Part shown: piece after piece, positions 140-53,921 of the stretch | Layout: every line of letters starts with the position of its first letter | How positions within the stretch are numbered: the stretch's first letter is position 1 | NCBI GenBank assembly: GCA_949282305.1 | Contig: CASDPB010000013.1 | Location: 1-64,000 of the forward strand | Direction of reading: 5' to 3' | DNA length: 64,000 bases | Source: an uncultured Lentisphaeria bacterium | Lineage (GTDB): Bacteria; Verrucomicrobiota; Lentisphaeria; Victivallales; UBA1829 | Program-made: the position numbers and the translations under genes | Notes under the pieces: generated by a model | The model's input: the letters and a program-made list of their open reading frames with translations, nothing else | What the model was told of the DNA's origin: nothing | The model's database searches: none

Positions 140-451
140 TTATGCTTTGAACCGCAGATGACACTTGGGACAGTGGTACAATCCGATCACGTTTTCGTCG
201 ATCAGCTTGCCAGCCTGAGCGCCGAGCAGACCTCCGGAGGTGACGCCCCAGAGGAGATTCAGGATACCTCCCGCGACAGCTCCGATGGTCGTGCCGACAA
301 CTCCCAACGTGCTTCCAGCACGGGCACCGCGAACCATGCCGACAATCACAACGGCTCCTCCTGCGGTAATCCCGGTTGCGGTTCCAACCGTACTGGCCCG
401 ATGAAGCGGATTCGCAATCGAGGCACAATTCGGACAAAAGACTTTCGCCAT
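140..451 (-). CDS. Small zinc-ribbon protein with a glycine-zipper core
   Basis: The product is 103 residues from an ATG at 451, with a good ribosome site (AAGGAGT) eight bases upstream. Two CxxC pairs sit at the ends (Cys6/Cys9 and Cys94/Cys97) and should form one zinc ribbon. Between them, residues about 22-80 are almost all Gly, Ala, Val and Thr with GxxxG spacing, as in glycine-zipper membrane segments. The likely picture is a membrane-inserted hairpin with a zinc-bound end. No function is recognised. It sits among mobile-element genes. A longer in-frame start at 697 lacks support, because it runs into the gene upstream. Confidence 0.6.
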   Translation of the reverse strand: MAKVFCPNCASIANPLHRASTVGTATGITAGGAVVIVGMVRGARAGSTLGVVGTTIGAVAGGILNLLWGVTSGGLLGAQAGKLIDENVIGLYHCPKCHLRFKA

Positions 452-567
452 AGTAACGACTCCTTCTTTCAGTTGATAAAACCGGCGACCGAAGCCGCCG
501 GGGTGCATGATACTCCGGAAATCGCACCATTTTTTCCGGAGGGCGTACCAAGGCAGAGCGCCGTGGA

Positions 568-1303
568 CTATCTTTTCCAGAGTCCCGCCGGTTTGCCGTC
601 CAGTCCGAACAGTCGGGTCAGACTGCGGTAGCACTGGTCGGCACGGGCGGGACTGTACTTCTTGGCGGTTTCGGTGAAGGCGTTCAACAGACTCCACCGG
701 GTCGGTTCGGCGAACTCCTCATGCCGGGGATGTTTGAACTCCTTCCAGACGGTCAGAATATCGCACGATGGAATCGCCTGACGCCTGACGTTCCGCCGCC
801 ACCACCAGCGAAGCACGAACTTCATCATCATTGAGTTCATCGATCTTCAACTCCTCTGCTACGTTTTCCAAAGTCAGAAACTCCAGTTCCAGAGCGTTCA
901 CGGCTTCCAGAACCAGACCGTTCAACTCGATCCGGGAGGTGTGCCGACGCTTCAGAACCGTACTTCCTCCGAAGCACAAATTACTGCACACATGGACACT
1001 GATTCCCGCTGACAAACCAACCGCAATCGTGCGGTCGTGGCTGTTGCGGATGCCGATGCAGCGGCTCCACTCCATGCTCGAACTTTTGTTGATCCGGATC
1101 ATGCCGAACATCCGCTGTCTGTCACGAGCCAAGCCATACTGCTCCTCAAGGATCGTCCAGCGATGCGTTTTCACGACATCGGTTACAGCATCGATCACTT
1201 CGCTGTGCGGAACCGGCCTCCAGCTCGCGGTAGCGATCGGAGTCGGAACCATTGCGATCTCGTCACGCCCGACGAACTTCCCTTCACACATCGTCAATCC
1301 CAT
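568..1303 (-). pseudogene. DUF932 phage/plasmid-like protein, interrupted by a frameshift
   Basis: Translation starts at an ATG at 1303 behind a CAGGAG site. It gives about 175 residues resembling the DUF932 family common on plasmids, phages and integrative elements (N-terminal WRPVPHSEVIDAV). The frame then runs into a stop at 719. The family's C-terminal part (ILTVWKEFKHPRHEEF, then WSLLNAFTE and a Tyr-Arg-Ser-Leu-rich end) continues in the next frame down to 568. The switch lies near 755-800, and one extra base would explain it. Together the two parts give about 245 residues, a normal family length. It may be a decaying gene, a programmed shift or a sequence error. Confidence 0.6.
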
Positions 1304-1372: not shown

Positions 1373-1609
1373 ATGAGTCCGACAAAAATCACTGAAGTAA
1401 CTTTGCCGAACGGAGTAACCGTTCCTGTCGTTTCTGCCGTGGAAACAGATGATACCACCACAGAAACCTTGCGAAATGTTGCCGCGAAAGCCGGTTCTCA
1501 TGCGGTTGAAAACGCCTTGTCGCGCGGCGTGTCCGTTACTGTCGCCAAAGCAGATAAGATTGTAACAATCCATCCGGACGGCAGCGAAAGCATCATCGGA
1601 GCGTTGTAG
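1373..1609 (+). CDS. Small protein paired with the zeta-toxin-like kinase; possible antitoxin
   Basis: The product is 78 residues from an ATG preceded by AGGAGGG. The N-terminal half looks like a small beta-rich segment (VTLPNGVTVPVV). A helical stretch follows, then an ending in VTIHPDGSESIIGAL. It lies four bases upstream of the zeta-toxin-like kinase and on the same strand, opposite to all neighbouring genes. Small proteins commonly precede zeta-like kinases. The antitoxin role is inferred only from position and size, and no DNA-binding motif is visible. Confidence 0.55.
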   Translation: MSPTKITEVTLPNGVTVPVVSAVETDDTTTETLRNVAAKAGSHAVENALSRGVSVTVAKADKIVTIHPDGSESIIGAL

Positions 1610-1613
1610 ACTG

Positions 1614-2336
1614 ATGACTCCGCGTCTGAGAATGCTTGCCGGTCCCAATGGCTCAGGGAAATCGACTCTTGCAGCCCAGCTGAGTTCAGATTATGCCGTC
1701 AATCTCTATCGCTTTTTGAATGCGGATCTGCTCTTTGCCGAAGTGGTGCAAAGCCACCGGACGGCCTGTCCGTTTTCAATCGACAATGCCGAACTTATGC
1801 AGTTCGTAGCCCGGTCAACCTATCCCCGGGAATATAAACGTCCCTTTGAATCGGGGGAGATTTATATTGACGGAGAAGATTACCTGCACTTTTCGGTGAA
1901 CGGAATCAATTCCTATTCCGTAGCAATCGTCGCAGACTTCTTCAAAGAGCAATACTTGAAACACCGGATCAGTTTTTCTTTTGAAACGGTGTTTTCACAT
2001 CCTGCCAAGATCGATATCCTCAGACGGGCACAGGCAGCCGGATTTAAGACCTACATGTACTTCGTTGCGACCGAGAATCCCGTGATCAACGTAAACCGGA
2101 TCAAGGAACGGGTCGCTCTGGGAGGACATGATGTTCCGGAAGAGAAAACCCGGTCGCGATATTTGCGCTGCATGGAACAAGTCCGTTATGCTTTGCCATA
2201 TTTAAACCGGGCCTACTTTTTCGACAACTCAACGGAGCAGTCGATTTATCTGGCGGAGTATGAATCGGAGGTTGGTTTCTCTCTGCATTCAGAGCTCCTG
2301 CCATCTTGGTTCAGACGCTTCGTGCTGGGTGAATAG
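1614..2336 (+). CDS. Zeta-toxin-like P-loop kinase
   Basis: The product is 240 residues. A Walker A motif (GPNGSGKST, residues 10-18) opens the protein. A FSFETVFSH stretch near 120 and an arginine-rich lid region near 160-185 (NRIKERVALGGHDVPEEK) are typical of zeta-toxin/AAA_33 kinases. Classical zeta toxins phosphorylate UDP-N-acetylglucosamine and block wall synthesis, but many relatives have unknown substrates. Residues about 40-100 form an insertion not needed by the fold. The gene follows the 78-residue partner by four bases. Its 3' end overlaps the convergent nuclease gene by 91 bases. An ordinary kinase role cannot be excluded. Confidence 0.7.
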   Translation: MTPRLRMLAGPNGSGKSTLAAQLSSDYAVNLYRFLNADLLFAEVVQSHRTACPFSIDNAELMQFVARSTYPREYKRPFESGEIYIDGEDYLHFSVNGINSYSVAIVADFFKEQYLKHRISFSFETVFSHPAKIDILRRAQAAGFKTYMYFVATENPVINVNRIKERVALGGHDVPEEKTRSRYLRCMEQVRYALPYLNRAYFFDNSTEQSIYLAEYESEVGFSLHSELLPSWFRRFVLGE

Positions 2337-3133
2337 ACCAAAGTCGAATGCCACTGTCTGCAACGATCCCGATAGGGACACTCGCCGCAGGCGAATGATG
2401 TTTCATTAGGTAGGAACACGCCTTTGTTGATCGCGTACTGTGCCCGGTTCGCCAGCGCCTCGAAGCGCCGGAAGTCATGAAAGCCGCGACTGGTGTAGTG
2501 CGATTCACAACCCGGATTCTTCGTCTTGGTGATGACATCGAACCGAAAGAGCGGAGCCGTGCCGTTCTGCTTCTCGTAGGCATAGCTGAACACAGTCGCC
2601 TGTAAATCACGGTCAGCCTTGCCAGCAGGCCAGCGACTCGCCGAGGTTTTCCAGTCCACGATACAGGCATCCCGTCCATCCTGAACGATGAGATCGAACT
2701 CACCGATCAGGGGCTTGTCCAGACCGGAAACATCTACCTTGAATGCCTGCGCGACTCCTTTGATCGTGTAGTAATCCGTCCAGTTCGCCAACGCCGCATC
2801 CAGCATTTTCGTTGCAAGATTGATCACCGTATCGAAGTTCTCGCCCTCCTTGTAGATCAGGTTCGGAGTAGCGTCGGCTTCGATCCTGAACGCCTCCGAG
2901 AAACGCTCCACAAGCTCATCCTGCCGCAGAGAGTTTCCCATCATGCATTCCCATGCCTGAGCAGTCAATGCCGCATGAAACGCTTTGCCGAACGGAAAGC
3001 AGACCGAAGTCCGTTCGACCTCGGCCTGATCCACATAGCGGTACATGAATTGCGCCTGACAGATGTTGAGGTACGTATTCAATGCCGAATACGACCAGTG
3101 CGGTTCCTTCCGCAGTTCGTCAATGGTCGCCAT
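2246..3133 (-). CDS. PD-(D/E)XK nuclease of the RecB/Cas4 type with probable Fe-S cluster
   Basis: The product is 295 residues. The nuclease core shows GEFDLIV (Asp147) and DWKTS (Asp160, Lys162), followed by a Gln-Ala-Thr-Val helix near 178. Four cysteines, one near the N-terminus (Cys25) and three at the C-terminus (CGECPYRDRC, Cys249/252/258), match the iron-sulfur staple of Cas4 and AddB nucleases. I chose the ATG at 3133, not the one at 3148. The stop of the upstream gene overlaps it as TGATG, and GGAGGG lies seven bases upstream. With its clamp-like and 144-residue neighbours it looks like a DNA replication or recombination module of an integrative element. The last 30 residues overlap the convergent kinase gene. 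Confidence 0.75.
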   Translation of the reverse strand: MATIDELRKEPHWSYSALNTYLNICQAQFMYRYVDQAEVERTSVCFPFGKAFHAALTAQAWECMMGNSLRQDELVERFSEAFRIEADATPNLIYKEGENFDTVINLATKMLDAALANWTDYYTIKGVAQAFKVDVSGLDKPLIGEFDLIVQDGRDACIVDWKTSASRWPAGKADRDLQATVFSYAYEKQNGTAPLFRFDVITKTKNPGCESHYTSRGFHDFRRFEALANRAQYAINKGVFLPNETSFACGECPYRDRCRQWHSTLVYSPSTKRLNQDGRSSECREKPTSDSYSAR

Positions 3134-3564
3134 CACGCCGCCCTCCATTCATTGATCTGATTGGAGCACTGCTGACGGGACAACTGACGTACATCGGGAA
3201 CCTGGAACCGGGCTGCGATCTGCTGTGGTGTCACGCCACGCTGACGGGCAAGATCAAGCAGATACGAGAGCTGCTTCGGGCTTGCCGGAGCATCATTCTG
3301 ACGGCCCCCTGACCGGTTACCTTGAGGCCCATTTTTACAGGGCTTTTCCGGCCATTTTCTCCCGTAATTCGCGGGGCTTTTTCCATGTAATTCGGCTTCG
3401 ACAGAATTCCGTACCAAATCGAAGGTTTCGTGAATACGGGCTTGGAGTGCTTCACCGGATAACCCATCCGGAAGTTCAACCTCGACCGACGCATGATAGC
3501 TCTGGCTCGAATATTCCTCTCCTGCCGGAACCTTCTTCGAATACGATGCGTTGAGTTTCAACAT
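3133..3564 (-). CDS. Hypothetical mobile-element protein, 143-144 residues
   Basis: The start at 3564 is preferred because GGAGG lies seven bases upstream, while the ATG at 3570 is too close. The N-terminal half (residues about 1-55) has beta-strand character with a Ser/Tyr-rich patch. A Pro/Gly/Asn-rich linker follows. The C-terminal 50 residues (ASPKQLSYLLDLA, then VTPQQIAARF) look like a small helical domain. The stop is fused to the nuclease start (TGATG), so the two are translationally coupled. I do not recognise a function. Its position between a clamp-like protein and a nuclease suggests an accessory role in DNA processing. Confidence 0.6.
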   Translation of the reverse strand: MLKLNASYSKKVPAGEEYSSQSYHASVEVELPDGLSGEALQARIHETFDLVRNSVEAELHGKSPANYGRKWPEKPCKNGPQGNRSGGRQNDAPASPKQLSYLLDLARQRGVTPQQIAARFQVPDVRQLSRQQCSNQINEWRAA

Positions 3565-3650
3565 AGTCATTCCTCCATAAAAGACAGATAGCCGGGAGCC
3601 TCGCAGCCCCCCCCGGCTATCCGTCCGTCTGTATTTGTGTTTTTATTTGG

Positions 3651-5006
3651 CTAAATCGCCATCCTGATCCGCTCGATAGCGCGTTTGGCCTGAACGAACT
3701 CGCGCTCGCGCTGCTTCTGCTGAAGCACGGCCTCTTTGACCTTGCGGGCCAGAAGCGCCGATTCGTCGAGCAGCGTTCTGAGCTTGCCGCGCAGCTCCTC
3801 AATGGAGTGATTCAGTTCCTCCATCGGATCAACCGTTTCGGGAACAGGTTCCGGGTTGCGGACGACCGTCTGCACAGGGGCGGACACGACTCTCATTTCA
3901 TTGTTTTCCATCTTGGGTTCCTCCGTTTGAGTTTGAATGGTTTTGGGTTCCTGATTCTGTTTTTGAGGCTGATATAACGGTATCGTGATATAGCGTCCCG
4001 TACCTCCGGTTGCAAGGATCGGGAAATGTCCGTCACTCGCCTCAATCTTCGTATGCCCCTCCGACAACAGCCGAAGAAGCACGTGCTTGTTGAGTTTGAT
4101 CGAAACATCGTTCCAGTTGCCGATAAATTCCGCCGCTATACTGGTGTGCATCTCGCCAGCGAGAATGTTCAGATACCCCGGATCGCTCTGGTACAACTCC
4201 ACAGGATTATGCGGAGGCTGGTCGGGAACATTCTTGAGGAAGATTTCAAGCTGCTGACCACGCTCCGGCAGAAACGATACCGAACGGACCAATGCCTTCT
4301 GCGAGGGGATAACCTGTTTCCAGTTCGGATAGTTCCCCTCCAACCCATTCGCATACCAGACCCAGTGTTCCGTTTCGATGCGGCACACCTTCCCGGTTCT
4401 GTCCGTCCATGTGCAGAGCATACCGGATTCCGTTGTCCTGGTCTGCATCAGAGCCAGCGGAAGCGGTATTGTGAAGTCATCCACATTCAGAGGAACGTAG
4501 ATGTTCAGCAGTTCCTTGCCGTTGGTCGCAGTGATCCCCTCCCGGCACAGGTTGATTCCCTGCAAGACCTTGCGCGGGTTGTTCCGGTCCACAAGCGGAG
4601 ATGCCGCAGCAAACAGAGCGACAAAGTCCTTCGGCAGTTCACTGATGGAGCAATGTTCACTCTCATCGGGAACCCGCCACTCCACACCGGACATCGGAAA
4701 CAAAGTCCTCTCCCCAACGCGCAGAGTTCCTTCGCTGTCTTCGATCTCAAGCACTTTGTTCCGGTATCCGCGAACCGCATCCCGGAACTCATCGAATCCC
4801 ACGATACAGCGGAACTCAACTTTCCCAGCACACGCCGTTCGGAACGTCATCTGTTCAGACGGAGAACGGGTGTTGAAACAGACTTTGCCATCCCCGCATT
4901 CGACCAACAGGGATTTATGCTCCGGAACCGGAGACATCCGACTGATCAGTTTCCCGAGCGCAATCAACGCTCTTTCCAATTCATTTTTGTTCATTTCAAT
5001 CTTCAT
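3651..5006 (-). CDS. DnaN-like sliding-clamp homologue with C-terminal coiled-coil tail
   Basis: The product is 451 residues from an ATG at 5006 behind GGAGG, chosen over a start at 5036. Residues 1 to about 345 follow the layout of bacterial beta clamps. The N-terminal strand MKIEMNKNELERAL, the RKVLQGINL...ATNGKELL segment and the HTKIEASDGHFPILATGG segment match places where DnaN has its repeated domains. The usual clamp length is about 370. The extra part is a Pro/Gln/Glu linker and a charged helix (about 395-451) likely to form a coiled coil. It would ring DNA and recruit partners, perhaps the nuclease downstream. The assignment is from pattern only and the relationship is distant. Confidence 0.6.
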   Translation of the reverse strand: MKIEMNKNELERALIALGKLISRMSPVPEHKSLLVECGDGKVCFNTRSPSEQMTFRTACAGKVEFRCIVGFDEFRDAVRGYRNKVLEIEDSEGTLRVGERTLFPMSGVEWRVPDESEHCSISELPKDFVALFAAASPLVDRNNPRKVLQGINLCREGITATNGKELLNIYVPLNVDDFTIPLPLALMQTRTTESGMLCTWTDRTGKVCRIETEHWVWYANGLEGNYPNWKQVIPSQKALVRSVSFLPERGQQLEIFLKNVPDQPPHNPVELYQSDPGYLNILAGEMHTSIAAEFIGNWNDVSIKLNKHVLLRLLSEGHTKIEASDGHFPILATGGTGRYITIPLYQPQKQNQEPKTIQTQTEEPKMENNEMRVVSAPVQTVVRNPEPVPETVDPMEELNHSIEELRGKLRTLLDESALLARKVKEAVLQQKQREREFVQAKRAIERIRMAI

Positions 5007-5029
5007 ACACAACCTCCGTGATGTTGAAA

Positions 5030-5066
5030 ATAACAAGCCCCTCCGATCCCGAAAGACCGGAAGGGC
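5030..5066 (-). terminator. Hairpin with U-rich tail upstream of the clamp-like gene
   Basis: The arms 5037-5045 (GCCCCTCCG) and 5058-5066 (CGGAAGGGC) pair over nine positions with one G-U. They enclose a 12-base loop and are followed on the minus strand by TTGTTATTTT. The hairpin could end transcription from the R-M genes or act as an attenuator in the clamp leader. Confidence 0.45.
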
Positions 5067-5419
5067 CGTTTGATAAGGTTCAGGCCGATCTCTTCAGCCT
5101 GCTGTCACGATGGTTATATATATGTGAAATTGGAAAGAAATACACACAATTGTAACTGTATTGATAGCAATGGTACTCTGCAATGCTACTACCTGAGTTT
5201 GTTCGGGATAATAGCTTGGGGTTGTCGACAGATATTTCATATTCGGACTGTTTGAGGTGTGGTACTCATTGCGAGTCTTTTCATCCGAAAAGGAGACAAC
5301 TTCCTGAATACTGCGGTGAGCGGCTTCCTTTTGCAGCCGGGTCTTGCTGAACACCCAGACTGTGTCCTGCCAGCTGCCCCTGTGTGGAAATGCGGTATAG
5401 AAACAACAGACGAGTCGTT
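5067..5419. other. Non-coding gap between the specificity subunit and the clamp-like gene
   Basis: No gene is supported here. The open frames have no ribosome site and no recognisable product. One copy of an 18-base near-repeat (5285-5302) is present; its partner lies at 8649-8666 on the other side of the R-M genes. Confidence 0.5.
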
Positions 5420-6493
5420 TTATTCAACCGGCTGACCTCCTTTTCTACCCATGTAAGCGAGATACAACTTGTATTTCTTCAACATCATATTTCTGGAATA
5501 TTGCTCCATATACTCATAGTCAGGTTCACCGGAATCATCCACAGGGAGCATTACCTGCATGTTCTTAATTCGAGCGTCATTTATCTCTCGATTAAAGTTG
5601 AAATTTGACCCCTGTTTTTCAATCAGTGCTGTCATAAAAAGATAGCAATATTTCGACATACCTTCTGTCTTTAATGCCGTTACATGGTCACTTGCGACAA
5701 AATCGAACGGTTCGTAAAAAGCCGTTCCGACGCTTCCACTATTCGCAAGACTAATACAATCGCCGAACACACGTGTGCCTGACGTGGCTTCAATATAATC
5801 ATCTACACCGTTATTATTCGCAGTTGAAGACACGTAAGGAATCATGCCGGCAACATGGTCTGCAGTCTTCAAGCGTTTTCCTCGCTGAATCATTTCGAAA
5901 ATCTCTGGCATCTTAAAATGAGACCATTCCTTTTCGTTCAGCGCTGGAATCTCAACAGGTTCTCCTATTTCCTCGATACACTTCTCAACGTAAGTGCGAT
6001 ACTTTGACAGCAGTGCTTCGCGCTTTTGCCGCGTATACTCGGCCATGTACTCATAATCAGGCTTGCCAGAATCAGTGACGGGAAGCATATTCTGAATGCG
6101 ATGTGCTCTTGGAAGTGAAATAGAGCGCCCATGACCAAAAACAGCATGTTGCTTTGAAATGCTCGCTGTCATACAAATCAAGGCATCTGGTGATATGTCT
6201 TCTTTCGGATGCAATGCGGTTACATGCGTATCCAATGCAAAATCAACAGGTTGATAATATGCAAGACCTGCGCCTCCATCACCATCATTATTCAGCGATA
6301 TAACATTGCCTCCCTTAATGACCTTTGCCGGTTCATCTATAAAGCCTTTTATCCCGTTATTTACTTTTCGAGCAGAAACGAGCGGAATATAACCTTGAGC
6401 AAGCGATGCCATGTTCTTCTCTTTGCCTCTCTCAAAAGTAAACATGGAATCCAACTCAACTGCATCCCACGTCTTCTCATCAAGACTTTGCAT
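5420..6493 (-). CDS. Specificity (S/B) subunit of a BcgI-like restriction-modification system
   Basis: The product is 357 residues, in two similar halves (about 1-175 and 190-357). Each half is a target-recognition domain: a variable block with LVSARKVNNGIKGF or YVSSTANNNGVDDY, then a VTAL strand, and an ending in LPV.DSG.PDYEYM. The ATG at 6493 has GGAGG eight bases upstream and overlaps the end of the methylase gene by 14 bases. The size and gene order match the B subunit of BcgI rather than the longer HsdS of classical type I systems. The subunit chooses a split DNA target; the target itself cannot be read from sequence. Confidence 0.85.
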   Translation of the reverse strand: MQSLDEKTWDAVELDSMFTFERGKEKNMASLAQGYIPLVSARKVNNGIKGFIDEPAKVIKGGNVISLNNDGDGGAGLAYYQPVDFALDTHVTALHPKEDISPDALICMTASISKQHAVFGHGRSISLPRAHRIQNMLPVTDSGKPDYEYMAEYTRQKREALLSKYRTYVEKCIEEIGEPVEIPALNEKEWSHFKMPEIFEMIQRGKRLKTADHVAGMIPYVSSTANNNGVDDYIEATSGTRVFGDCISLANSGSVGTAFYEPFDFVASDHVTALKTEGMSKYCYLFMTALIEKQGSNFNFNREINDARIKNMQVMLPVDDSGEPDYEYMEQYSRNMMLKKYKLYLAYMGRKGGQPVE

Positions 6494-8405
6494 CACCGTC
6501 ACCTCCCTTGAACAGATACTCGCGGTTCTGCATGATCATCGAAAACTCAAATGTCAGATAGTCACCAATAGCTTTCTCAAAGTCGGCGTCTGTTGGAATT
6601 TCGTCGTTAAAGTAATAGAACGAATGCAGCCACTCGTCATCTGGCTTCACTGTCGATTCAACACAAAATTTTGACGGTGCTTCTGCGCGGTCGAACCAGA
6701 CATCCAAGAGATGTTGCTTCTTGTCCTTCGCAGAATCGCCTTCAATGAGGCCGACGTGTGCCCGCACCTCATAGCCGTCGCTGCGGAAGTCGATGAATTT
6801 GCAGACCTTATCTTCATCATGTGGCTCATGTGCCGTAAATATAGCGATAACCGGATTTACACCAACGCCGTAAAAGGTGTCTGTGTTACATGTAATGACA
6901 CCTTCCAACGTATGTTTTCTCATGATGCTGGCCTTAAAATTCTGCTCGTCCTTGGTTTTACCAGTCATCGATGACTGAGGTACAATCACAGCAGCGCGTG
7001 CGCCAACGGTAAGAGAATCTAACAAGCGTTCAATAAAAGAGAGTTCGTATTGTTCTGGATCAGCTTTCGTGCCTTGAGAATAAGGCGGATTCATCAAACC
7101 TACTGTAGCACCCTTCAACTGCACTTGAGCGGGATTTTTCTTCAAGAAATCACAACATTCCAAATTGCTGTTTCCATCCCGGCGGAGAATCATGTTGGCA
7201 GCAGCTACGGCAAACATATTGCTCTGAAGCTCGAAGCCGTGAAGCTGCTTCTTCTTGATGTTCTTCTTTTGTGCGTCTGTGTCAGCCAGCATCAGCATCC
7301 GGTGCATTGCTGCAATCAGAAATCCGGCTGTTCCGCAGGTTGTGTCGATAACAATGTCATCCGACTGTACGTCTACCAATTCACACATCAAATCGCAGAT
7401 ATGACGGGGTGTTAGGATAATGCCCAACGTCTGTCCATCGCCGCCGGAGTAACTCATAAATTCGCCATAGAATCGGCCAATGAAATCCTCGCTGGTCTTC
7501 TGGTACTTGATGTTGCGGAACACATGTTCATACAGGAACTCCGTGTAATACTTCAAGGGAGTCTTTCCGAGCGTTTCATTCATCTCGTTCAGGCGGAAGC
7601 TGGTCTGCAAAATAGCGAACTCTGCCAGCAGCTTGTCTTTCTTCGCATCAGGTCCGACATTAGAGCGCGTCAGACGCCCCTTTATCGCATTCATCAGCTT
7701 GTCACCATCACGCATACCTGGCGTTTGGTCTCCGGTCAATGAATTGATCGAGAAGCCACCGAACTCAATCTCGTCCAGCGCCAGTAGAATACCTGCGACG
7801 ACCAGAGGTTTATCTTGGTCTTTCAAAGTCCCATATGTACGCAGATACTCATGTAAATCAGCTGCATCTTTCAGAATCTGCTCGGTCGTCTTCTCGATGT
7901 CAGTTGCTTCTTCCAGCACATAACGAGTATAATACTCGCTGATATTTTGCTCAGAGAATGAGATAAAAGATTCAATGTCCGGCAACTGCTTGTAGCCCTC
8001 ACGATCATCCACCCACAGCGGTGTAATGATATGATGTTTTGCATCACCGGAAACACCAACCGCAAACACCTTCTTAAACGCCGTATTCTGCGCAATATGC
8101 TTGGCATAAAAGTATGCGCCATTCACAGCGTAATCAGTCACTGCTTTCAAATTCATATCAATGATGCCGGAATCGGTCAGCTTAATCTGTTTGTCCATGC
8201 CGGCCTTGTCCTCAATAACGAGAACAAAATCACCAATGACAGCAGTATATTCAGGATATCCGACGTTACCAGTCCCACGCTTCGAAGCGCTCTTCAGGGC
8301 TTCGTTAATTTCCTTCACATTGCTGCCCTGCGCATCGAATCGAATTTTGCACTCGTCAAGCTGGGCCGCGACCCAAAGATCTGTCTTTACTTCTTTTTTA
8401 GCCAC
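6480..8405 (-). CDS. BcgI-like R-M subunit A: fused nuclease and N6-adenine methylase
   Basis: The product is 641 residues, starting with GTG at 8405 behind AAGGAGG. The N-terminal part carries a PD-(D/E)XK-like set: Pro51-Glu52, then VIEDK (Glu65, Lys67). The methylase part has a helical HsdM-like bundle, the AdoMet-binding motif DTTCGTAGFL (about 354-363) and the catalytic NPPY (439-442). BcgI-type (type IIB) enzymes have this fused A subunit of about 640 residues plus a separate B subunit, and cut on both sides of their site. No separate HsdR lies nearby. The start overlaps an upstream mini-gene (GTGGCTAA), so translation is coupled. Confidence 0.85.
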   Translation of the reverse strand: MAKKEVKTDLWVAAQLDECKIRFDAQGSNVKEINEALKSASKRGTGNVGYPEYTAVIGDFVLVIEDKAGMDKQIKLTDSGIIDMNLKAVTDYAVNGAYFYAKHIAQNTAFKKVFAVGVSGDAKHHIITPLWVDDREGYKQLPDIESFISFSEQNISEYYTRYVLEEATDIEKTTEQILKDAADLHEYLRTYGTLKDQDKPLVVAGILLALDEIEFGGFSINSLTGDQTPGMRDGDKLMNAIKGRLTRSNVGPDAKKDKLLAEFAILQTSFRLNEMNETLGKTPLKYYTEFLYEHVFRNIKYQKTSEDFIGRFYGEFMSYSGGDGQTLGIILTPRHICDLMCELVDVQSDDIVIDTTCGTAGFLIAAMHRMLMLADTDAQKKNIKKKQLHGFELQSNMFAVAAANMILRRDGNSNLECCDFLKKNPAQVQLKGATVGLMNPPYSQGTKADPEQYELSFIERLLDSLTVGARAAVIVPQSSMTGKTKDEQNFKASIMRKHTLEGVITCNTDTFYGVGVNPVIAIFTAHEPHDEDKVCKFIDFRSDGYEVRAHVGLIEGDSAKDKKQHLLDVWFDRAEAPSKFCVESTVKPDDEWLHSFYYFNDEIPTDADFEKAIGDYLTFEFSMIMQNREYLFKGGDGDAKS

Positions 8406-8541
8406 GTTCCGGAACCTCCTTCTTCAGCTCATCGATACAATCAAGAATAGCAGCTGCAACCGGTGTATTAGCATAAACTTTCCAAAGTACGTTATCTTTT
8501 GGTAAAAGAGCAATATTCATAGATAAGCGTCTCCTCGCCAT
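8398..8541 (-). CDS. Mini-gene at the head of the R-M operon (40-47 residues)
   Basis: Three in-frame ATGs (8520, 8541 and one further upstream) all have purine-rich sites nearby. The best are AGGAG before 8541 and GAGGAG before 8520. The product from 8520 begins MNIALLPKDNVLWKVYA and ends in a charged helix, with Glu-Arg-Gly last. It has no helix-turn-helix and does not resemble controller (C) proteins. Its stop overlaps the GTG start of the methylase-nuclease, a common form of translational coupling. It may be a leader peptide or a small subunit or inhibitor. No function is recognised. Confidence 0.5.
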   Translation of the reverse strand: MARRRLSMNIALLPKDNVLWKVYANTPVAAAILDCIDELKKEVPERG

Positions 8542-8592
8542 TTCTTTTCTCCTGCTCATGTGACTCCTCGAACCTATTCGCGTATATGTGAT

Positions 8593-8617
8593 TTACTTTA
8601 TTGTAGGTCTAAAGTAA
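8593..8617. promoter_or_regulatory. Inverted repeat upstream of the R-M operon
   Basis: Perfect eight-base arms TTACTTTA (8593-8600) and TAAAGTAA (8610-8617) are separated by nine bases in an AT-rich leader. The spacing suits a dimeric regulator. A promoter on the minus strand is likely nearby, but no clear -35/-10 pair stands out. Confidence 0.35.
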
Positions 8618-8679
8618 GTTTTTTAGTTATAATAGTAAATCGTCATCTCCGAAAAGGAACCAACTTTATACATTTGCTG

Positions 8680-9141
8680 TTACTGGGGTAGTGGCTGACC
8701 GATCAGATATGATTGATAGATATACTCCGGATTTTCAAAAAACATGCTGCTGTTATAATCATCCAGTCGGTCGGCTATCCAGGAGTTGTAAACTTCGATC
8801 AGTGTATCGGGAAAGTCAATCCCTTTTGCTTGAGAAACCGCAATGATCAAGCGTTTATAGACTTTGCCAATATCAAAAATGGAAGGAACAGTATAACGGC
8901 AGGCTGCGACATTATCGAAGGTTCCCTGCGGTATATGGTATTTCTCTGTCAGATTGTCGATCAGCTTCTCCATATTCTCGCTGTGATAGATGTCTGCCAG
9001 CTCCAGCAGATGACGAATCTCGGCAATTCCAAAAGCGTTTACGACTACACGCCGATGGTTCTTTGTCTTCCGCCCAATCGCTTCGATCAGCGAACAGACA
9101 AAGAAAAGATCGTTTTCCTGACGGTCTTCACGTCCGGTCAT
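8680..9141 (-). CDS. Partner protein of the DUF3990-type toxin (probable antitoxin)
   Basis: The product is 153 residues. It starts at an ATG at 9141 that overlaps the upstream stop as ATGA and has AAGGAGG seven bases away. It is mostly helical, with a Lys/Arg/His cluster near 27-33 and a C-terminal signature (IADRLDDYNSSMFFENPEYIYQSYL, quoted in part) that I associate with proteins accompanying DUF3990 genes. The tight coupling suggests one functional unit, with this protein neutralising or escorting the upstream protein. That role is inferred from context and is not demonstrated. Confidence 0.6.
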   Translation of the reverse strand: MTGREDRQENDLFFVCSLIEAIGRKTKNHRRVVVNAFGIAEIRHLLELADIYHSENMEKLIDNLTEKYHIPQGTFDNVAACRYTVPSIFDIGKVYKRLIIAVSQAKGIDFPDTLIEVYNSWIADRLDDYNSSMFFENPEYIYQSYLIGQPLPQ

Positions 9142-9593
9142 CGTGTGACCTCCTTGCTTTCCAAGAAAGTCAAACAGGACAACGCTCTCGGGGTGCAAAA
9201 CGTAATCTGATGAGTTGGATGCTTGAATTTTGCCAATACCCAGAATTGTTCTCTGGTGAGGATTCCGCTGATGAAGTCGGCAACATAGTTCCATATCTGA
9301 TCGTTTGCCATCGCTCCGACTACGATGTCATGAGAATGCGGAGTTCCGTTCCGGCAGGCTACGATGAAGTCAAGCCACTCTTCCGTCATCTGATCGAAAC
9401 TCAGAATATCCAAATCAGGATCAGGAGTGTATTCATAAAAACTGACAACAGGGGTGTCGAACCGCCTTGACCAGCGTTCCGCTTGTGACAGCAACTCCGT
9501 ACAATAGAAACCGGGACCGAAATCTTTATTATTTCGGCTCGGCTTTATTTCCGGAGTCCGTATTTCACAATATCCACCGTGGTAGACAATCAT
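9138..9593 (-). CDS. DUF3990 family protein, ADP-ribosyltransferase-like toxin candidate
   Basis: The product is 151 residues, opening with IVYHGGYCEI and KDFGPGFYCTE. These are the hallmark YHGS/T and GxGFY-type strands of DUF3990, a family with a predicted ADP-ribosyltransferase fold often encoded in toxin-antitoxin-like pairs. A Phe-Tyr-Glu strand follows at about 51-53, and a Trp-Leu-Asp-Phe-Ile helix near 72. It is the first gene of a two-gene unit and overlaps its partner by four bases. Catalysis and target are unknown. Confidence 0.7.
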   Translation of the reverse strand: MIVYHGGYCEIRTPEIKPSRNNKDFGPGFYCTELLSQAERWSRRFDTPVVSFYEYTPDPDLDILSFDQMTEEWLDFIVACRNGTPHSHDIVVGAMANDQIWNYVADFISGILTREQFWVLAKFKHPTHQITFCTPRALSCLTFLESKEVTR

Positions 9594-27897: not shown

Positions 27898-28692
27898 ATG
27901 CTTACATTGCTTTGTGCCCTGGCTGCCGGAATCATTGTCTGGCTCGGAACTGTTTACGGATTTCATCTCACGTCGTCGTGGGGAACTTTTCTCGGCGTTT
28001 TCGCCATGCTGGCCGTGCAGGTTGCGGTGTCGCTGATCGTCCGCCGCAAAACGACAAAGATCAACCTTCAGATTCAAGGGATTATGCTGGACGTCCAGAA
28101 GAAACTGGAGGCGAAACAGCAGCAGTTCATGCGCCGCCCGATGGACCCGAAACTTATGATGCAGCAGTTCACGAAGGAACAGAATGCCGGACTGGAGCGC
28201 GCGATCACGGCTTGTGAACTGTTCCGCCCGCTCTACAAGTGGAGTTTTCTGATGGAGCGTCAGATCAACACAATGAAAATGGCGTTCAACTATCAGCTCA
28301 GGCGGTATGACGAGGCGGACCGCCTGATGGCGAAATCGCTTCTGCTTGACCCGCAGTCCATTGCAATGAAAATGGCACGCATGTACAAGCGTGGCGAGGA
28401 GGGAATAGACAAGTTTTTCAAAAAAAAATGCAAGAGGCTCAAGGGGAAGAACTGTGTCCTTCCTTATTCGCTGTATGCGTGGATTCTGATTAAGCAGGAC
28501 AAGGCGGATGAGGCGTTCAAGGTGATGACCGAAGCGAAGAAACGTGTTGAAAATGAGGTGATTGTCCGGAACTGGGAAGTTCTTGCGAATAAAAAGCCGA
28601 AAAGTTTTTCCAATGCGGGACTCGGTGAAATGTGGTATGCTCTTGCTTTGGAAGAGCCCAAAATGCCCAAACAGCAGTACCGCTACCGCTGA
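27898..28692 (+). CDS. Membrane protein with helical-repeat cytoplasmic domain
   Basis: The product is 264 residues. Two membrane helices lie at about 2-22 and 28-50. A long helical part follows with TPR-like pairs (NYQLRRYDEADRLMAKSLLLDP and KQDKADEAFKVMTEAKKRV, cited in part). The ATG follows AGGAA. Such proteins usually serve as docking platforms. It lies on its own between a weak gap and the rpsB promoter. No specific function is recognised. Confidence 0.7.
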   Translation: MLTLLCALAAGIIVWLGTVYGFHLTSSWGTFLGVFAMLAVQVAVSLIVRRKTTKINLQIQGIMLDVQKKLEAKQQQFMRRPMDPKLMMQQFTKEQNAGLERAITACELFRPLYKWSFLMERQINTMKMAFNYQLRRYDEADRLMAKSLLLDPQSIAMKMARMYKRGEEGIDKFFKKKCKRLKGKNCVLPYSLYAWILIKQDKADEAFKVMTEAKKRVENEVIVRNWEVLANKKPKSFSNAGLGEMWYALALEEPKMPKQQYRYR

Positions 28693-28793
28693 GCAGATTC
28701 CCGGGGCAGGCTGATGTTTCTTCACAGAATTGCGGCGGACGCGCCGTCGGCTGTCTTTCTGTCGTGTTTTTCTTGAAACTTGCGGCTTATGAC

Positions 28794-28821
28794 TTGAAAC
28801 TTTCCGTTTTCATGCTATCTT
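28794..28821 (+). promoter_or_regulatory. Probable rpsB-tsf promoter
   Basis: TTGAAA (28794-28799) and TATCTT (28816-28821) are separated by 16 bases. The start would leave a leader of about 160 bases before rpsB, containing complementary GTGTGCG and CGCGCATTACAC blocks that could fold. Autoregulation by S2 is known in other bacteria, but this structure is only suggested here. Confidence 0.45.
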
Positions 28822-28987
28822 AACTACTCTTTTCAGTGTTCGTGTGCGGGCTTCGCTGTGCGTTGCCTTCCCCATTAACCAACCCGGGGCGCGCATTACA
28901 CCAAAACAATAAAGATGTCTTGCCGGACTCATAACAATAGAAAAAAGTCCGTGCGAAAGCGTCGAAACAAAGAAAGGGCGGCCGATC

Positions 28988-29968
28988 ATGGCTCTCACAG
29001 TAAAAGATCTTCTTGAGGCAGGATGTCATTTCGGACATCAGACAAAACGCTGGAACCCCAAAATGAAGGACTATGTTTACGGTTCCAAAAACGGTATTTC
29101 CATCATCGACATCACCAGGACCATTCATCAGGTCGCCGACGCCTGCAACTTCCTTCAGGGCTGTGTCATGAAAGGCGGCAAGATTCTCTTCGTCGGAACG
29201 AAAAGACAGGCGCAGCAGATCGTCCGCGAGGCTTCCGACGCCACGGGAATGAACTATGTCATGGAAAGATGGATGGGCGGAACGCTCACGAACAACGCCA
29301 CCATCAAGAAATCCATCAAGAAAATGCAGGAGATTGATGCAATTGTCAGCAGTGAAAACAGCAAACTCAAAAAGAAGGAGATTGCTGTCCTTTCCCGTCA
29401 GGGCGAAAAACTTCACCGGGATCTCGACGGCATCGCCTCCATGAAGAAACTTCCGGATGCGGTCGTCATCGTTGACGTCTGCCATGATGAAATCGCTGTC
29501 AAGGAAGCACGCAAGCTCAATATTCCGATCGTTGCAATCGTTGATACAAACGGCGATCCCGAGCCGATTGATTATCCGATCGCCGCCAACGACGATGCCG
29601 TGAAATCCATCAAGGTCATCATGGACACCTTTGTCGAGACGATCAAAGATGCCGCTGAGCTCTATGGCAAGAAGGCTGCCGAAGACAAGGCGAAGGCGGA
29701 TGCCGCCGCAGCTGAAAGAGCGAAGGATGAACCCAAACGCCGCAGCGTCAAAGGCGAAAGCAAGGATGGAAAGAGCGGAAAACGCGCTTTCACGAAGCGC
29801 CCCTCCCGCAAGCTGGTTGACGGTGCTCCCAAAGCTGATGGAGAAGAAAAAGTCGAGGTTACGACGGATGCGGAAATGAAGAAGAAAGCCCCGGCGAAAA
29901 AGGCCGCTCCCAAGAAAGCGGAAGCCGCGGCGGAAGCTCCGAAAGCTGAAGAAAAACCTGCTGAATAA
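28988..29968 (+). CDS. rpsB: Small ribosomal subunit protein S2 with long basic tail
   Basis: The product is 326 residues. The first 225 follow S2 closely: LLEAGCHFGHQTKRWNPKM, ERWMGGTLTNN, LPDAVVIVDV and PIVAIVDTN. The last 95 or so residues, beginning after YGKKAAEDKAK, form a low-complexity Lys/Ala/Glu-rich extension not present in the common 240-residue form. It starts after GGGCGG and precedes tsf by 29 bases, the classical order. Confidence 0.95.
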   Translation: MALTVKDLLEAGCHFGHQTKRWNPKMKDYVYGSKNGISIIDITRTIHQVADACNFLQGCVMKGGKILFVGTKRQAQQIVREASDATGMNYVMERWMGGTLTNNATIKKSIKKMQEIDAIVSSENSKLKKKEIAVLSRQGEKLHRDLDGIASMKKLPDAVVIVDVCHDEIAVKEARKLNIPIVAIVDTNGDPEPIDYPIAANDDAVKSIKVIMDTFVETIKDAAELYGKKAAEDKAKADAAAAERAKDEPKRRSVKGESKDGKSGKRAFTKRPSRKLVDGAPKADGEEKVEVTTDAEMKKKAPAKKAAPKKAEAAAEAPKAEEKPAE

Positions 29969-29997
29969 GTTTAATCCTATCTGAAAGGAGTCCGATA

Positions 29998-30801
29998 ATG
30001 GCTAACATAACTGCTGCAATGGTCAAAGAACTGCGCGATAAAACCGATGCGGGAATGATGGATTGCAAAAAAGCTCTGACAGAAACAAACGGCGACATGG
30101 AAGCCGCTGTTGAGTATCTGCGTAAAACCGGTGCGGCGAAAGCTGAAAAGCGTGCCGACAAAGCCACCAAGGAAGGCAAAGTCTTTGCCGCGGTCGATGG
30201 AAACAAGGCCGTTATGATCGAGGTTCTTTGCGAGACCGACTTTGTTGCGGGCAATGAAAAATTCTTCGATTATGTCAAAGAAGCCGCCGGACGCATTCTT
30301 GCCGCCACATCCGGTGACGGCGACATTACGGAAAAGGCTCAGGAACTCGAAAACGACAATCTGAAGGAACTCTTCGTGAAGTTCGGTGAAAAGATGGTTC
30401 TCCGCAGAGCAGTCCGTTTCGAGTCTGCCGGTGTGGTTTCCTCCTATATGCACGGCAACGGTAAAATCGGCATCATGATCGATGTCGAAGGCACGACTGA
30501 TCCGGAGCTTCTCAAGGCGATCTGCATGCATATCGCGGCTTACAGTCCGATGTATGTCAACTCCGGCGAGGTTCCCGCCGAGGCGATTGCGAAGGAAAAG
30601 GAAATTGCCGCGGCTCAGCTTGCGGGCAAGCCTGCAAATATGATTGAGAAGATCCTTGCCGGCAAGATCAACAAGTGGTATACTGAAATCTGCCTCATGA
30701 ACCAGCCCTGGATTCATGATGACAAGACCTGCCTGGCAAAACTTGCTCCCGGCGTGAAAGTCAACAAGTTTGTCCGCTGGACCGTCGGTCAGGAACTTTA
30801 A
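29998..30801 (+). CDS. tsf: Elongation factor Ts
   Basis: The product is 267 residues. It exchanges GDP on EF-Tu. The N-terminal UBA-like helix (MVKELRDKTDAGMMDCKKAL) and the core TDFVAGNEKFF are clear family marks, with the EF-Tu contact in TDFV. The length is slightly below the E. coli form (283). The ATG has AAAGGAG eight bases upstream. It is followed by a strong terminator, so rpsB-tsf is one unit. Confidence 0.97.
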   Translation: MANITAAMVKELRDKTDAGMMDCKKALTETNGDMEAAVEYLRKTGAAKAEKRADKATKEGKVFAAVDGNKAVMIEVLCETDFVAGNEKFFDYVKEAAGRILAATSGDGDITEKAQELENDNLKELFVKFGEKMVLRRAVRFESAGVVSSYMHGNGKIGIMIDVEGTTDPELLKAICMHIAAYSPMYVNSGEVPAEAIAKEKEIAAAQLAGKPANMIEKILAGKINKWYTEICLMNQPWIHDDKTCLAKLAPGVKVNKFVRWTVGQEL

Positions 30802-30822
30802 TCCGTTCTGCTGATTTTTGTC

Positions 30823-30858
30823 AAAGGGTCTGTTCCGTAAAAGAACAGACCCTTTTTT
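30823..30858 (+). terminator. Strong terminator of rpsB-tsf
   Basis: Arms AAAGGGTCTGTTC (30823-30835) and GAACAGACCCTTT (30843-30855) pair perfectly over 13 bases around a seven-base loop, followed by a run of T. Confidence 0.9.
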
Positions 30859-30872
30859 TACAGGTGTTTTCC

Positions 30873-32099
30873 ATGAACAGAGTGGCAGTAATCGGTTCGG
30901 GGCCTGCCGGTTTGTCGGCGGCGCTGGCGCTCAGGGAATGCGGAAGGGAACCCGTAGTCTTTGAGCGGAGGGATCTTCCCGCCCTTAAACTTCTTGCCAG
31001 CGGGGGTGGACGCTGCAACTTCACCAATATTCTGGAACCTGAAGTTTTTATGGAAAAATTCGGGCGGAACGGTCTGTTCATGCGGGACGTCCTGTGTTTT
31101 GCTCCGCGGGAATGGCTGATTTCCTTCCTTGAAACGCATGGGGTTCCGGTTCAGCTGACGGATGGTTTCCACTATTTTCCGAAATCCGGGAAAGCGCGCG
31201 ATATTCTGAATGCTTTTCTCACTGCATCCCATGCCGTTGTCAAGACATCATCCGAAGTTTCGGAGATATTGACGGAAGACGGTGCTGTTTCCGGAATCCG
31301 CGTCAACGGGATTGCACTTCCTTTTGAAACAGTGATCCTTGCGGCAGGCGGTCCGGCGTGGAAAGGACTTGGCAGTGCCTCCGGCTTGAGGCTTGCGGAG
31401 ATGCTGGGTCACACGATTGTAAAACCTCTTCCTGCGGTTGCTCCGCTTCTGATCCGCGAGGATTGGGTCAAGTCCCTTGCCGGAGTCAGCCTGGAGCGGG
31501 CGAGGCTCTTTATGCGCAGGGGAAAGCGTCATCGCGTAATTGAAACCGTGGGGAACCTGCTTTTCACCCATGAGGGGCTTTCCGGTTTTTCCGCGCTTGA
31601 TCTTGCCGGAGACGCCGCCGCAATCTGCGCGGAAAACGGGGATTCGGAGCTGTTTCTCAGTGTCCGCCCGGAATGGAACAGGGGGGACTGGGCTGCGGAA
31701 GTGGAGCGCTGGAGACGCGGGGACGGCTGGAAGCTGATCCGTTCGCATCTCGCACGGCATATAGTCCGTTCCGTGGCGGACATGATTTGTGATCTTTCCG
31801 AGTGTTACGACGTGAAAGCATGCAGTCTTTCCGCAGTTCAGCGCGATGCCCTGCTTGACAATCTGACGGCTCTGCCGCTGACCGTTTACGGTGCGGGCCC
31901 CATGGGAAAGGCTATGGCGATGCGCGGGGGAGTCTCCCTGAAAGAGATTCATCCGGCGACTTTGGAGAGCCGCCGTGTAAAGGGGCTTTACTTTGCCGGC
32001 GAGATCATGGATCTTGTCGGTCCCTGCGGCGGCTACAACATGCAATGGGCTTTTTCGTCCGGCAGACTTGCCGGGAGTCTGAGAAATCTTCACTCCTGA
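30873..32099 (+). CDS. HI0933/BaiN-like FAD-binding oxidoreductase
   Basis: The product is 408 residues. The FAD-binding motif GSGPAGLSAAL is at the start, followed by FERRD. LLASGGGRCNFTN is a hallmark of the HI0933 flavoprotein family. DGFHYFPKSGKARDI and the C-terminal GLYFAGEIMDLVGPCGGYNMQWAFSSG (quoted in part) also fit. Substrates of this family are mostly unknown. The ATG at 30873 follows AGGTG. Its 3' end overlaps the convergent lipoprotein gene by ten bases. Confidence 0.85.
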   Translation: MNRVAVIGSGPAGLSAALALRECGREPVVFERRDLPALKLLASGGGRCNFTNILEPEVFMEKFGRNGLFMRDVLCFAPREWLISFLETHGVPVQLTDGFHYFPKSGKARDILNAFLTASHAVVKTSSEVSEILTEDGAVSGIRVNGIALPFETVILAAGGPAWKGLGSASGLRLAEMLGHTIVKPLPAVAPLLIREDWVKSLAGVSLERARLFMRRGKRHRVIETVGNLLFTHEGLSGFSALDLAGDAAAICAENGDSELFLSVRPEWNRGDWAAEVERWRRGDGWKLIRSHLARHIVRSVADMICDLSECYDVKACSLSAVQRDALLDNLTALPLTVYGAGPMGKAMAMRGGVSLKEIHPATLESRRVKGLYFAGEIMDLVGPCGGYNMQWAFSSGRLAGSLRNLHS

Positions 32100-41643: not shown

Positions 41644-42812
41644 TATTTCTGATCCTTCGCTGTCTTGTCTTCATTTTTCTTGATTACAGGTTCCGGATTA
41701 AGTTTCAGCCTGAGTTCCTGTTTTGAATTCGGGACTTTGCTCAGGATGAACTTATCTTTCACGAGCGCCATGGAGTCCGCGAGCGTGGTGGAGTAAAGCG
41801 AAACCATCACGGCGTCCGGGTTTTTCTCATATTCTTTCAGGATTGCCTCGAAATAGGAAATATCAGCTTTGACTTCCGCTTCAATGCGTGCCTTGTAGGA
41901 TTCCGCATTGGCAATGATCATTGCCGACTGGGATTTTGCACTGTTGGCCATTTCAATTGCTTTGGCTTTGGCTGTTTCGATTTCGATTGTCGCCTGTGTG
42001 CTTGCGCTTGCCGCCTCGTCGAATGCGGCGATTGTCTGGAGAGGCGGACGTTTGACCGGGAGTGCGAGGCTTTCCACCGCGACACCGATCTGCATGTCAT
42101 TGAGCTGTTTTTCCAGCTGGGCCTGAACCGCGTTGATGTAGTCGGTCGTCTTGTTATAGAGAATATCCTTGATGTCCCATGTGGCGGTTACTTTGATGAT
42201 GCACTCGTCCAGCACATTTTTTAGCATTGTTATCGCACCGCGCGTTCCGAGCAGTTCTCCGTCGGGACCTTTCATCACCTCGTCAGGATCAAGAGGACGT
42301 TCCGGGGTAAGGCATTTTTCATAGTAGACTTCAGGGTTCTGCACCCGGTAAACGAGTTCCCATTCGCTGTGGAGGATGCTGTTGTCGCCGGTCAGCAGGA
42401 AGCCGTCTTTGCCAGGCGTCAGCGTCGCATTCGGAGAGGCTCCGTTCTGCTCGTTCTTACGCTCCGTGATGGAGGTGCGGTCTGCGGGCATGAACGTCAT
42501 GCTGCGGATTGTCTGGTTGGTCTTCGGCACCCTGATGACCTTGCTCACCGGATACGGGAAACTCCAGTAGACTCCGCCGAGTTCGTATTTATTTGTCAGC
42601 TTGCCGAACTGCAGCAGCAAAACAGATTCCTTTGTGGAGTCCACGATGAAAAAGCCGCCGAGAGTGAAGAACCAGACGACCATCAATGCGATGATGATCG
42701 TCAGCAGTGTGAAGAACACTTTGAACATCCGCGAAACAGCCAGCATTCCCTGAGAGAACTGCCCGCTGTCCGCCGTGTCCATCGCATTCTGGTATCTGTT
42801 ATCGTTTTCCAT
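41643..42812 (-). CDS. SPFH-domain membrane protein (HflK-like)
   Basis: The product is 389 residues. One membrane helix (about 31-52) is followed by an SPFH domain (STKESVLLLQFGKL, then WSFPYPVSKVIRVP). A long Ala/Glu/Lys helical part (around 255-320) precedes a beta-rich end, as in HflK. HflK and HflC form a membrane cage around the FtsH protease. A VMKGPDGELLG insertion of about 20 residues lies in the middle. It is the third SPFH gene of the operon. Confidence 0.8.
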   Translation of the reverse strand: MENDNRYQNAMDTADSGQFSQGMLAVSRMFKVFFTLLTIIIALMVVWFFTLGGFFIVDSTKESVLLLQFGKLTNKYELGGVYWSFPYPVSKVIRVPKTNQTIRSMTFMPADRTSITERKNEQNGASPNATLTPGKDGFLLTGDNSILHSEWELVYRVQNPEVYYEKCLTPERPLDPDEVMKGPDGELLGTRGAITMLKNVLDECIIKVTATWDIKDILYNKTTDYINAVQAQLEKQLNDMQIGVAVESLALPVKRPPLQTIAAFDEAASASTQATIEIETAKAKAIEMANSAKSQSAMIIANAESYKARIEAEVKADISYFEAILKEYEKNPDAVMVSLYSTTLADSMALVKDKFILSKVPNSKQELRLKLNPEPVIKKNEDKTAKDQK

Positions 42813-42836
42813 TTGTATTCAATCCCCGTTTTCCCG

Positions 42837-43787: not shown

Positions 43788-43817
43788 AATTTTGTTCTCC
43801 AATATTTTAATTATTAT

Positions 43818-52048: not shown

Positions 52049-52134
52049 CAAAAATTTGATTTGGCGAATGGAGCAAGTGTCAGACTGAGAGAAACAATAC
52101 AATATAATGTAAATATTTTCTTCATAAGTGCTGT

Positions 52135-53010: not shown

Positions 53011-53170
53011 AATTATAACCCTTCAATAATTTGTGTTTCTATTGAAAGAACTGCTTATTGTGTCTTTCTCCTAAGTTGGACAGCTTGTTATGGACAGGTT
53101 ATAGCAAAACAAATAAAAATATTTTACAGTAAAATCTATCAGCATACTGTAGGTTTTGAGATATTTTAAG

Positions 53171-53632: not shown

Positions 53633-53654
53633 AACTATCATCCTTTTATTGCTC

Positions 53655-53721
53655 CGGCAATTCAGATTACCTGTTATTTTTCGTGTTGGCTTAGCTTGTA
53701 AACAAGCAATCTGAACTGCCG
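53655..53721. repeat. Long inverted repeat before the AT-rich gene
   Basis: Arms CGGCAATTCAGATT (53655-53668) and AATCTGAACTGCCG (53708-53721) match with one difference. A second inverted pair, GCTTGT (53694-53699) and ACAAGC (53702-53707), lies inside. It could be the relic of a small mobile element or a regulator site of the gene at 53171-53632. Confidence 0.5.
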
Positions 53722-53852
53722 AAACTTTATATGAAGATTCTTATATGGAAACTGCCATCCGCTGTTTCAGCTCCGCCGTTATTTTAGTGTGTTTGGTTTC
53801 GATCAGCATTCAGCCGCACATCCATTTTTTATATGACTGCTTCTTAATAATA

Positions 53853-53921
53853 CAGTGTTCTATAGTCTGTTCTATATTAAATTATATGACAAACTGCAAA
53901 AACCGCAAGTATAGAACACTG
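53853..53921. repeat. Perfect 12-base inverted repeat downstream of the CCA-adding enzyme
   Basis: CAGTGTTCTATA (53853-53864) and TATAGAACACTG (53910-53921) are exact inverse copies 45 bases apart. The right arm is followed by an A-run and then GCATTTTTTTTC, an A/T hairpin (53921-53940). On the minus strand this could help stop CCA-enzyme transcription, or mark an inserted element. The remainder of the gap 53633-53959 has no supported gene. Confidence 0.5.

Follow-up and report, generated by a model that had tools for sequence, protein, structure and literature searches.

Gene order at the locus

The subject of this analysis is a clamp-nuclease operon at the start of contig C13 (CASDPB010000013.1, assembly GCA_949282305.1) of an uncultured Lentisphaeria bacterium of the order Victivallales, whose genome of 4.36 Mb is spread over 132 contigs. 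Positions 1 to 64,000 of this contig were analyzed, and this whole stretch is called the window below. On its minus strand lie, in this order, the genes for a DnaN-type sliding clamp, an orphan protein designated P144 and a Cas4/RecB-like nuclease, preceded by a structured leader RNA. All three open reading frames (ORFs) are intact. An original prediction from the letters of the sequence had named these three genes and the fusion of the last two, and the latter was found at 3135-3131, where the stop codon of P144 overlaps the start codon of the nuclease in the motif TGATG. The module as first described was incomplete in leaving out two further minus-strand genes, encoding a DUF932 protein and a glycine-zipper protein, to which the operon extends beyond an inserted cassette. 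The main features are as follows.

5004..5145, minus strand: structured leader RNA (folding z-score, RNAalifold, covariance model R1)
3651..5006, minus strand: DnaN-type sliding clamp, 451 amino acids (ATG at 5006, stop codon ending at 3651; profile matches)
3651..3841, minus strand: helical tail of the clamp, approximately residues 389-451 (alignment, predicted helix, break of DNA homology at 3841)
3133..3564, minus strand: orphan protein P144, with a conserved N-terminal region of about 60 amino acids, a variable linker and a C-terminal KQ-type domain (alignments)
2246..3133, minus strand: Cas4/RecB-like nuclease of family PF12705 with cysteines of the iron-sulfur (Fe-S) type; family sequence ends near 2348

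Recurrence of the three-gene order

A census of the gene order had been set in advance as a test of the original prediction, and the order was found to recur within the GTDB phylum, so that it is not a matter of chance. A profile search of the phylum detected P144 in 56 of 388 genomes. The census loci were selected by P144 alone and consisted of the best one from each of 30 genomes together with 24 distant loci chosen by hand, of which five belong to genome G036. A clamp gene was present upstream of P144 at 38 of 52 loci, a nuclease gene downstream at 42 of 52, and both at 35 of 50. Clamp matches were obtained in 67 of 100 genomes of relatives, many of them to chromosomal DnaN; genome G057 gave 11 matches, nearly all of which were copies of the module. 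The distant loci L192, L199, L201 and L202 kept the clamp, P144 and nuclease with no DUF932 gene nearby.

Nine loci had neither neighbor, and six of these came from G036. In the G036 copies which were read, the gene after P144 encodes another PD-(D/E)XK-like protein (PF12705 5e-4, below cutoff), and P144 therefore seems to remain paired with a nuclease even when the nuclease itself is replaced. By gene order, P144 and the nuclease are the firmest pair, with the clamp next and DUF932 a frequent partner. G036, which is a single contig, carries five P144 copies (L209, L212-L215) lacking the module clamp and nuclease, and in those read a CbbQ/MoxR-like ATPase gene also follows. Genes of CbbQ-type AAA, DUF3150 or CobT-like VWA proteins adjoin P144 or the nuclease in the distant relatives L197, L200 and L192.

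The clamp body and its tail

The predicted DnaN-like clamp with a tail was borne out by profile analysis. The window protein alone matched TIGR00663 (E 3e-7) and PHROG 947, DNA polymerase processivity factor (E 1e-13), and a profile of 32 relatives compared with PDB chains matched 4trt over positions 1-342 with an E of 2.4e-25 and many beta clamps over 1-345. On the strength of this match, which spans three domains, the protein is assigned to the beta sliding clamp superfamily. The fold test that accompanied the original prediction was answered by the profile and not by a model. An AlphaFold model built with four sequences was of low quality (predicted local distance difference test score, pLDDT, 51.5); because this model was poor, the clamp assignment rests on the profiles. 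One tail helix, residues 394-450, was predicted. Signatures lining the peptide-binding groove of E. coli beta were kept, with YPNWKQVIP aligned to FPDYERVLP and YxAMP aligned to YVVMPMR.

The module clamps thus share the three-domain profile match and the groove signatures with DnaN and with the phage clamps of PHROG 947, phages with a clamp of their own being known. They differ from DnaN in falling below the equivalog cutoff of TIGR00663 (29.6 vs 137.65 bits for the window clamp), in forming a separate lineage, in having an extra linker and a conserved helical tail, and in residing on mobile elements. In the IQ-TREE phylogeny the host DnaN proteins were set apart from the module clamps by a branch with 100/100 support and a length of 1.72 changes per site; the row L241 in this tree is a module copy wrongly labeled as host, and of the module rows L201 is placed closest to the host group, falling outside the 100/100 branch. 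The module clamps form an old lineage of their own, apart from host DnaN. Three chromosomal-type DnaN genes were also found in the genome from which the window comes (L242 on C6, L243 on C116 and L244 on C109), two of which pair separately in the tree. A clamp of 95% identity is present at L037, whose contig was assigned to Erysipelotrichaceae, probably through a binning error and possibly through transfer. No module clamp was found by our searches of viral contigs, phages and plasmids.

The C-terminal 60 or so residues lie past the end of the DnaN match and were conserved in all relatives aligned. When the window was compared with L063, the clamp bodies were 36% identical and the tails 98% identical, with P144 at 90% and the nuclease at 92%. 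In comparisons with L062 and L066, which have another clamp body, DNA homology covered the nuclease, P144 and the tail and ended at about 3841. Sequence comparison thus indicates that clamp body and tail recombine separately. Spearman correlation of distances with those of P144, the nuclease and DUF932 was 0.70-0.79 for the tail and 0.58-0.60 for the body, a pattern in keeping with a tail that acts together with the module and a body that is responsive to the host; closeness on the DNA would produce it too.

The nuclease and P144

The Cas4/RecB-like nuclease with Fe-S-type cysteines was likewise confirmed. The protein matched PF12705 with an E of 2e-22 (80.8 bits vs a gathering threshold of 22) and also matched PHROG exonuclease families. 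Invariant among 18 relatives were the catalytic residues H53, E145, D147, D160, K162 and Q178 together with the cysteines C25, C249, C252 and C258, consistent with an enzyme of the PD-(D/E)XK type for which an Fe-S cluster is predicted. The TIGR00372 (Cas4) cutoff was missed (19.9 vs 65 bits), and PADLOC gave only weak matches to Cas4, DruK and a Cas4-like model. The closest phage relatives were the PF12705 exonucleases of Geobacillus phage TP-84, encoded directly upstream of an annealing-protein gene, and of Bacillus phage vB_BpsM-61, encoded upstream of an ERF gene. They belong to the same family, align to 84% of the query with 23-26% identity and adjoin a recombination gene; in the present module P144 and usually DUF932 take the place of an annealing protein of the ERF type, with a clamp gene lying upstream. 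The position of the phage relatives beside annealing-protein genes favors a role in end resection for recombination.

DNA homology of the window nuclease to other copies ends at 2347/2348, and its last 33 or so residues are non-family sequence. A functional extension of the nuclease was considered for this stretch and rejected, as it derives from the inserted toxin-antitoxin cassette; the same tail occurs in L039, and the insertion is thus not private to the window genome.

The predicted 144-residue protein is present as an ORF where it had been placed, although the start common to the family, MLKLNAS at 3564, gives 143 amino acids in the window (143-145 in the family). Its N-terminal domain is rich in invariant residues, the linker is variable, and the C-terminal domain weakly resembles GemA and DUF3072. 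A RecT-like PHROG was matched by one of 41 P144 rows (E 0.0048). The P144 profile found no sequence match among solved chains, and no P144 was found by these searches in viral contigs. The motif KQ(L/I)xxLL of P144 was considered as a clamp-binding peptide and set aside, since it lies inside the domain shared with GemA-like proteins and is hence probably structural.

A structured leader ahead of the clamp gene

About 120 nt ahead of the clamp gene fold strongly in many copies which lack the c6-c5 gene pair, the z-score in the window being -6.8. The region after TATATA pairs with the GGAGG and start codon of the clamp gene to form a long stem. RNAalifold analysis of ten diverse copies recovered this stem and an inner hairpin with 27 pairs, six of which showed compensating double changes. 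Pairing of the two arms within a copy was better than pairing across copies, and 11 of 20,000 permutations, in which relatedness was not controlled, were as good. The leader was present ahead of the clamp in the window, L042, L044, L063, L067 and others, and covariance model R1 matched in 13 of 61 genomes; wherever the frame downstream of an R1 match was readable, which leaves aside several weaker matches, it belonged to a clamp gene, either intact or broken. No Rfam family was found for the leader, the best match below threshold being LLnc147 (E 0.14). From its structure the leader is likely to act in translational control of the operon; the TATATA could also be a promoter box. In another group of copies (L049-L051, L054, L056, L058-L061, L065, L070, L072 and L081) an unknown gene pair, encoding approximately 259 and 131 amino acids, takes the place of the leader upstream of the clamp.

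DUF932, the glycine-zipper gene and inserted cassettes

The remaining features of the window locus are listed here.

1373..2336, plus strand: inserted cassette of a putative antitoxin of 78 amino acids (1373-1609) and a zeta-type toxin (1614-2336)
719..1303, minus strand: DUF932 protein, frameshifted, with the C-terminal part in ORF 568-840 (PF06067)
140..454, minus strand: glycine-zipper protein, 104 amino acids, CPNC/CPKC ends; final gene of the shared block
5420..9593, minus strand: cargo consisting of a type IIG restriction-modification enzyme with specificity subunit and the PDC-M10A/B candidate defense genes (PADLOC)

The window DUF932 matched PF06067 with an E of 5.4e-9 and is frameshifted relative to its homologues, which were found at 32 other loci, mostly directly after the nuclease; in other copies the stop codon of the nuclease and the start of DUF932 are only a few bases apart. 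To our knowledge, DUF932 proteins, which are common in phages and islands, have no known function. A DUF932 model of good quality (pLDDT 86.8) had no clear structural relative. The best row was the C-terminal domain of Tn7 TnsE (Z 7.0, root-mean-square deviation 3.4, 116 residues aligned), a score within the noise range. A Rad52/RecT-type annealing fold was sought for DUF932, and no such match appeared among the Foldseek or VIA rows, an absence that falls short of proof. Among DUF932 relatives in viral contigs (80 kept of 253), none of the 80 loci had a match to the clamp, P144 or nuclease, and they had no common exonuclease neighbor.

Homologues of the glycine-zipper gene were found in L042, L044, L046, L038 and others, and the shared DNA ends at its stop codon. 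The block that runs uninterrupted in other copies is broken in the window by the toxin-antitoxin cassette, which spans 1307-2347 and encodes a toxin matching Zeta_toxin PF06414 (E 3e-7). With the C-terminus of the nuclease replaced and DUF932 frameshifted, the window copy is partly decayed, while the family is intact elsewhere. Such cassettes sit exactly at operon junctions, BrnT between clamp and P144 in L063 (11620-11922) and zeta between nuclease and DUF932 in the window.

Mobile elements and cargo

The block common to unrelated contexts measures roughly 4 kb, starting some 140 bp before the clamp start and ending at the glycine-zipper stop codon, and copies approximately 90% identical were found in different families of the order. 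Residence on a mobile element, as had been proposed, was substantiated in the near-complete genome G045, where three copies lie between a transfer RNA (tRNA) gene and a direct repeat of the tRNA 3' end. The repeat coordinates below refer to joined regions.

tRNA-Ala element: repeats at 21988 and 74518, 52.5 kb
tRNA-Thr element: repeats at 31220 and 58676, 27.5 kb
tRNA-Pro element: repeats at 20839 and 56883, 36 kb

The tRNA-Pro element has a tyrosine integrase (PF00589) beside the far repeat, a DUF5906/D5-type primase-helicase and a YfjJ/G2P-like protein, and the tRNA-Thr element encodes an HTH_17-type regulator together with a Pif1 helicase. The YfjJ/G2P-like protein in L062 matched PF11726 (9.8e-12). 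Two listed elements, read by eye and partly tested with profiles, had no obvious capsid or terminase gene. The element of the window copy is cut by the contig end, and for its right-hand boundary no empty site was found in the genus.

Several copies have a restriction system shortly before the clamp gene. It is of type IIG in the window and of type I in L063, and a type III system occupies this place in L069 and, past a reverse transcriptase gene, in L062. Other copies, L048, L050 and L056 among them, have non-defense genes upstream, with transposase-like or host-type genes there. Elsewhere in the window, strong swings of AT-skew were noted at 28001-31000 and 42001-44000, as well as a dip to 32% GC at 52001-54000.

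Proposed function and alternatives

Judged from protein families and gene neighborhood, the locus is somewhat more probably than otherwise an operon with which tRNA-integrated mobile elements of Victivallales and related bacteria replicate and recombine their DNA. This is the most economical reading because the clamp, a primase-helicase and an integrase share the same elements. The host clamp loader would load the element's own clamp onto the excised or replicating element, where the clamp body would serve as processivity factor and as a platform for the nuclease and P144, and the helical tail would recruit the module partners. The nuclease would resect ends, and P144, perhaps with DUF932, would bind or anneal the single strand in the manner of phage exonuclease/annealing pairs. 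The leader RNA would mask the Shine-Dalgarno sequence and so keep the operon low until needed. A more specific version we hold only tentatively: that the tail of this private clamp tethers P144, the nuclease and often DUF932, coupling end processing and annealing to replication of the element, with bodies swapped for new hosts, tails matched to partners and expression gated by the RNA leader.

Several observations weigh against a replication and recombination operon of this kind. Three loci (L195, L196 and L197) keep P144 and the nuclease with no clamp upstream, so that a clamp is not always required. Neither P144 nor DUF932 matches a single-strand annealing family above noise, and near the module we noticed no polymerase or clamp loader encoded by the element. 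Physical linkage alone may account for the correlation between tail and partners. In the alignments of the nuclease and of DUF932 no conserved peptide for clamp binding is apparent, and the loaded clamp-nuclease machine of the original prediction found no backing there.

That prediction had also left a choice between replication and anti-defense. The phage relatives of the nuclease, lying in recombination gene sets, favor the first, and we consider it unlikely that the Cas4-like nuclease and its partners shield the incoming element from host CRISPR or restriction, with the clamp targeting them to element DNA. Phage PF12705 Cas4-like proteins do exist, and for one of them interference with the CRISPR system of its Campylobacter host has been reported (PMC5704561); in L196 the gene after the nuclease is an anti-restriction gene of the ArdC type. 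This neighbor was seen once, however, and the nuclease does not reach the Cas4 cutoff. Slightly less likely still is an anti-phage defense operon, in which the clamp, nuclease, DUF932 and glycine-zipper protein would block phage replication on an element acting as carrier of a defense island. The restriction systems (types I, III and IIG) and candidate defense genes directly upstream of several clamps would suit such a role, as would the toxin-antitoxin cassettes within the operon, but the clamp, P144 and DUF932 match no PADLOC defense model, the nuclease does so only weakly, and the upstream genes of L048, L050 and L056 are not of this kind. Element upkeep is suggested instead by the genes for a primase, an integrase and a YfjJ-like protein that these elements also carry. 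Finally, a divergent clamp which retains groove signatures yet lies far from host DnaN might act as a decoy, ousting the host clamp at forks or absorbing its partners to favor the element or slow the host. This appears improbable, as it leaves the recurring link to the nuclease and P144 unexplained and the many copies in a genome such as G057 would burden the host.

Relation to known systems

The proposed replication and recombination operon on tRNA-integrated elements can be set beside several described systems. The E. coli island CP4-57 is of a similar type to GIPni1, a genomic island of Pseudomonas nitroreducens. The excerpted description of GIPni1 lists a tyrosine integrase, AlpA, inovirus Gp2 and DUF932 (PMC7466150), to which the tyrosine integrase, YfjJ/G2P-like protein, HTH_17 regulator, DUF932 and genomic-island life style seen here are comparable; no sliding clamp, P144 or Cas4-like nuclease is mentioned in that excerpt (PMC7466150). 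P4-like satellites have hotspots of anti-phage genes and resemble the present elements in being integrated with swapped anti-phage cargo, and the abstract describing them contains no mention of a clamp-P144-nuclease operon (PMC9122126). Tn7 TnsE is a target selector which interacts with the clamp (PMC9690074), and its appearance as the best structural row for DUF932, within the noise range and with a clamp gene nearby, is suggestive for that reason; no Tn7-type transposition genes were noticed here.

In the literature searched, no description was found of a tailed clamp in a recurring operon with an exonuclease, and the grouping of clamp, P144 and nuclease looks new, its mechanism being put forward here by inference. 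Should the tail indeed act as a tether for the nuclease and P144, these mobile elements would have built a bacterial clamp toolbelt, which would offer a tractable route for coupling recombination to replication and, if true, would give P144 and DUF932 a testable role.

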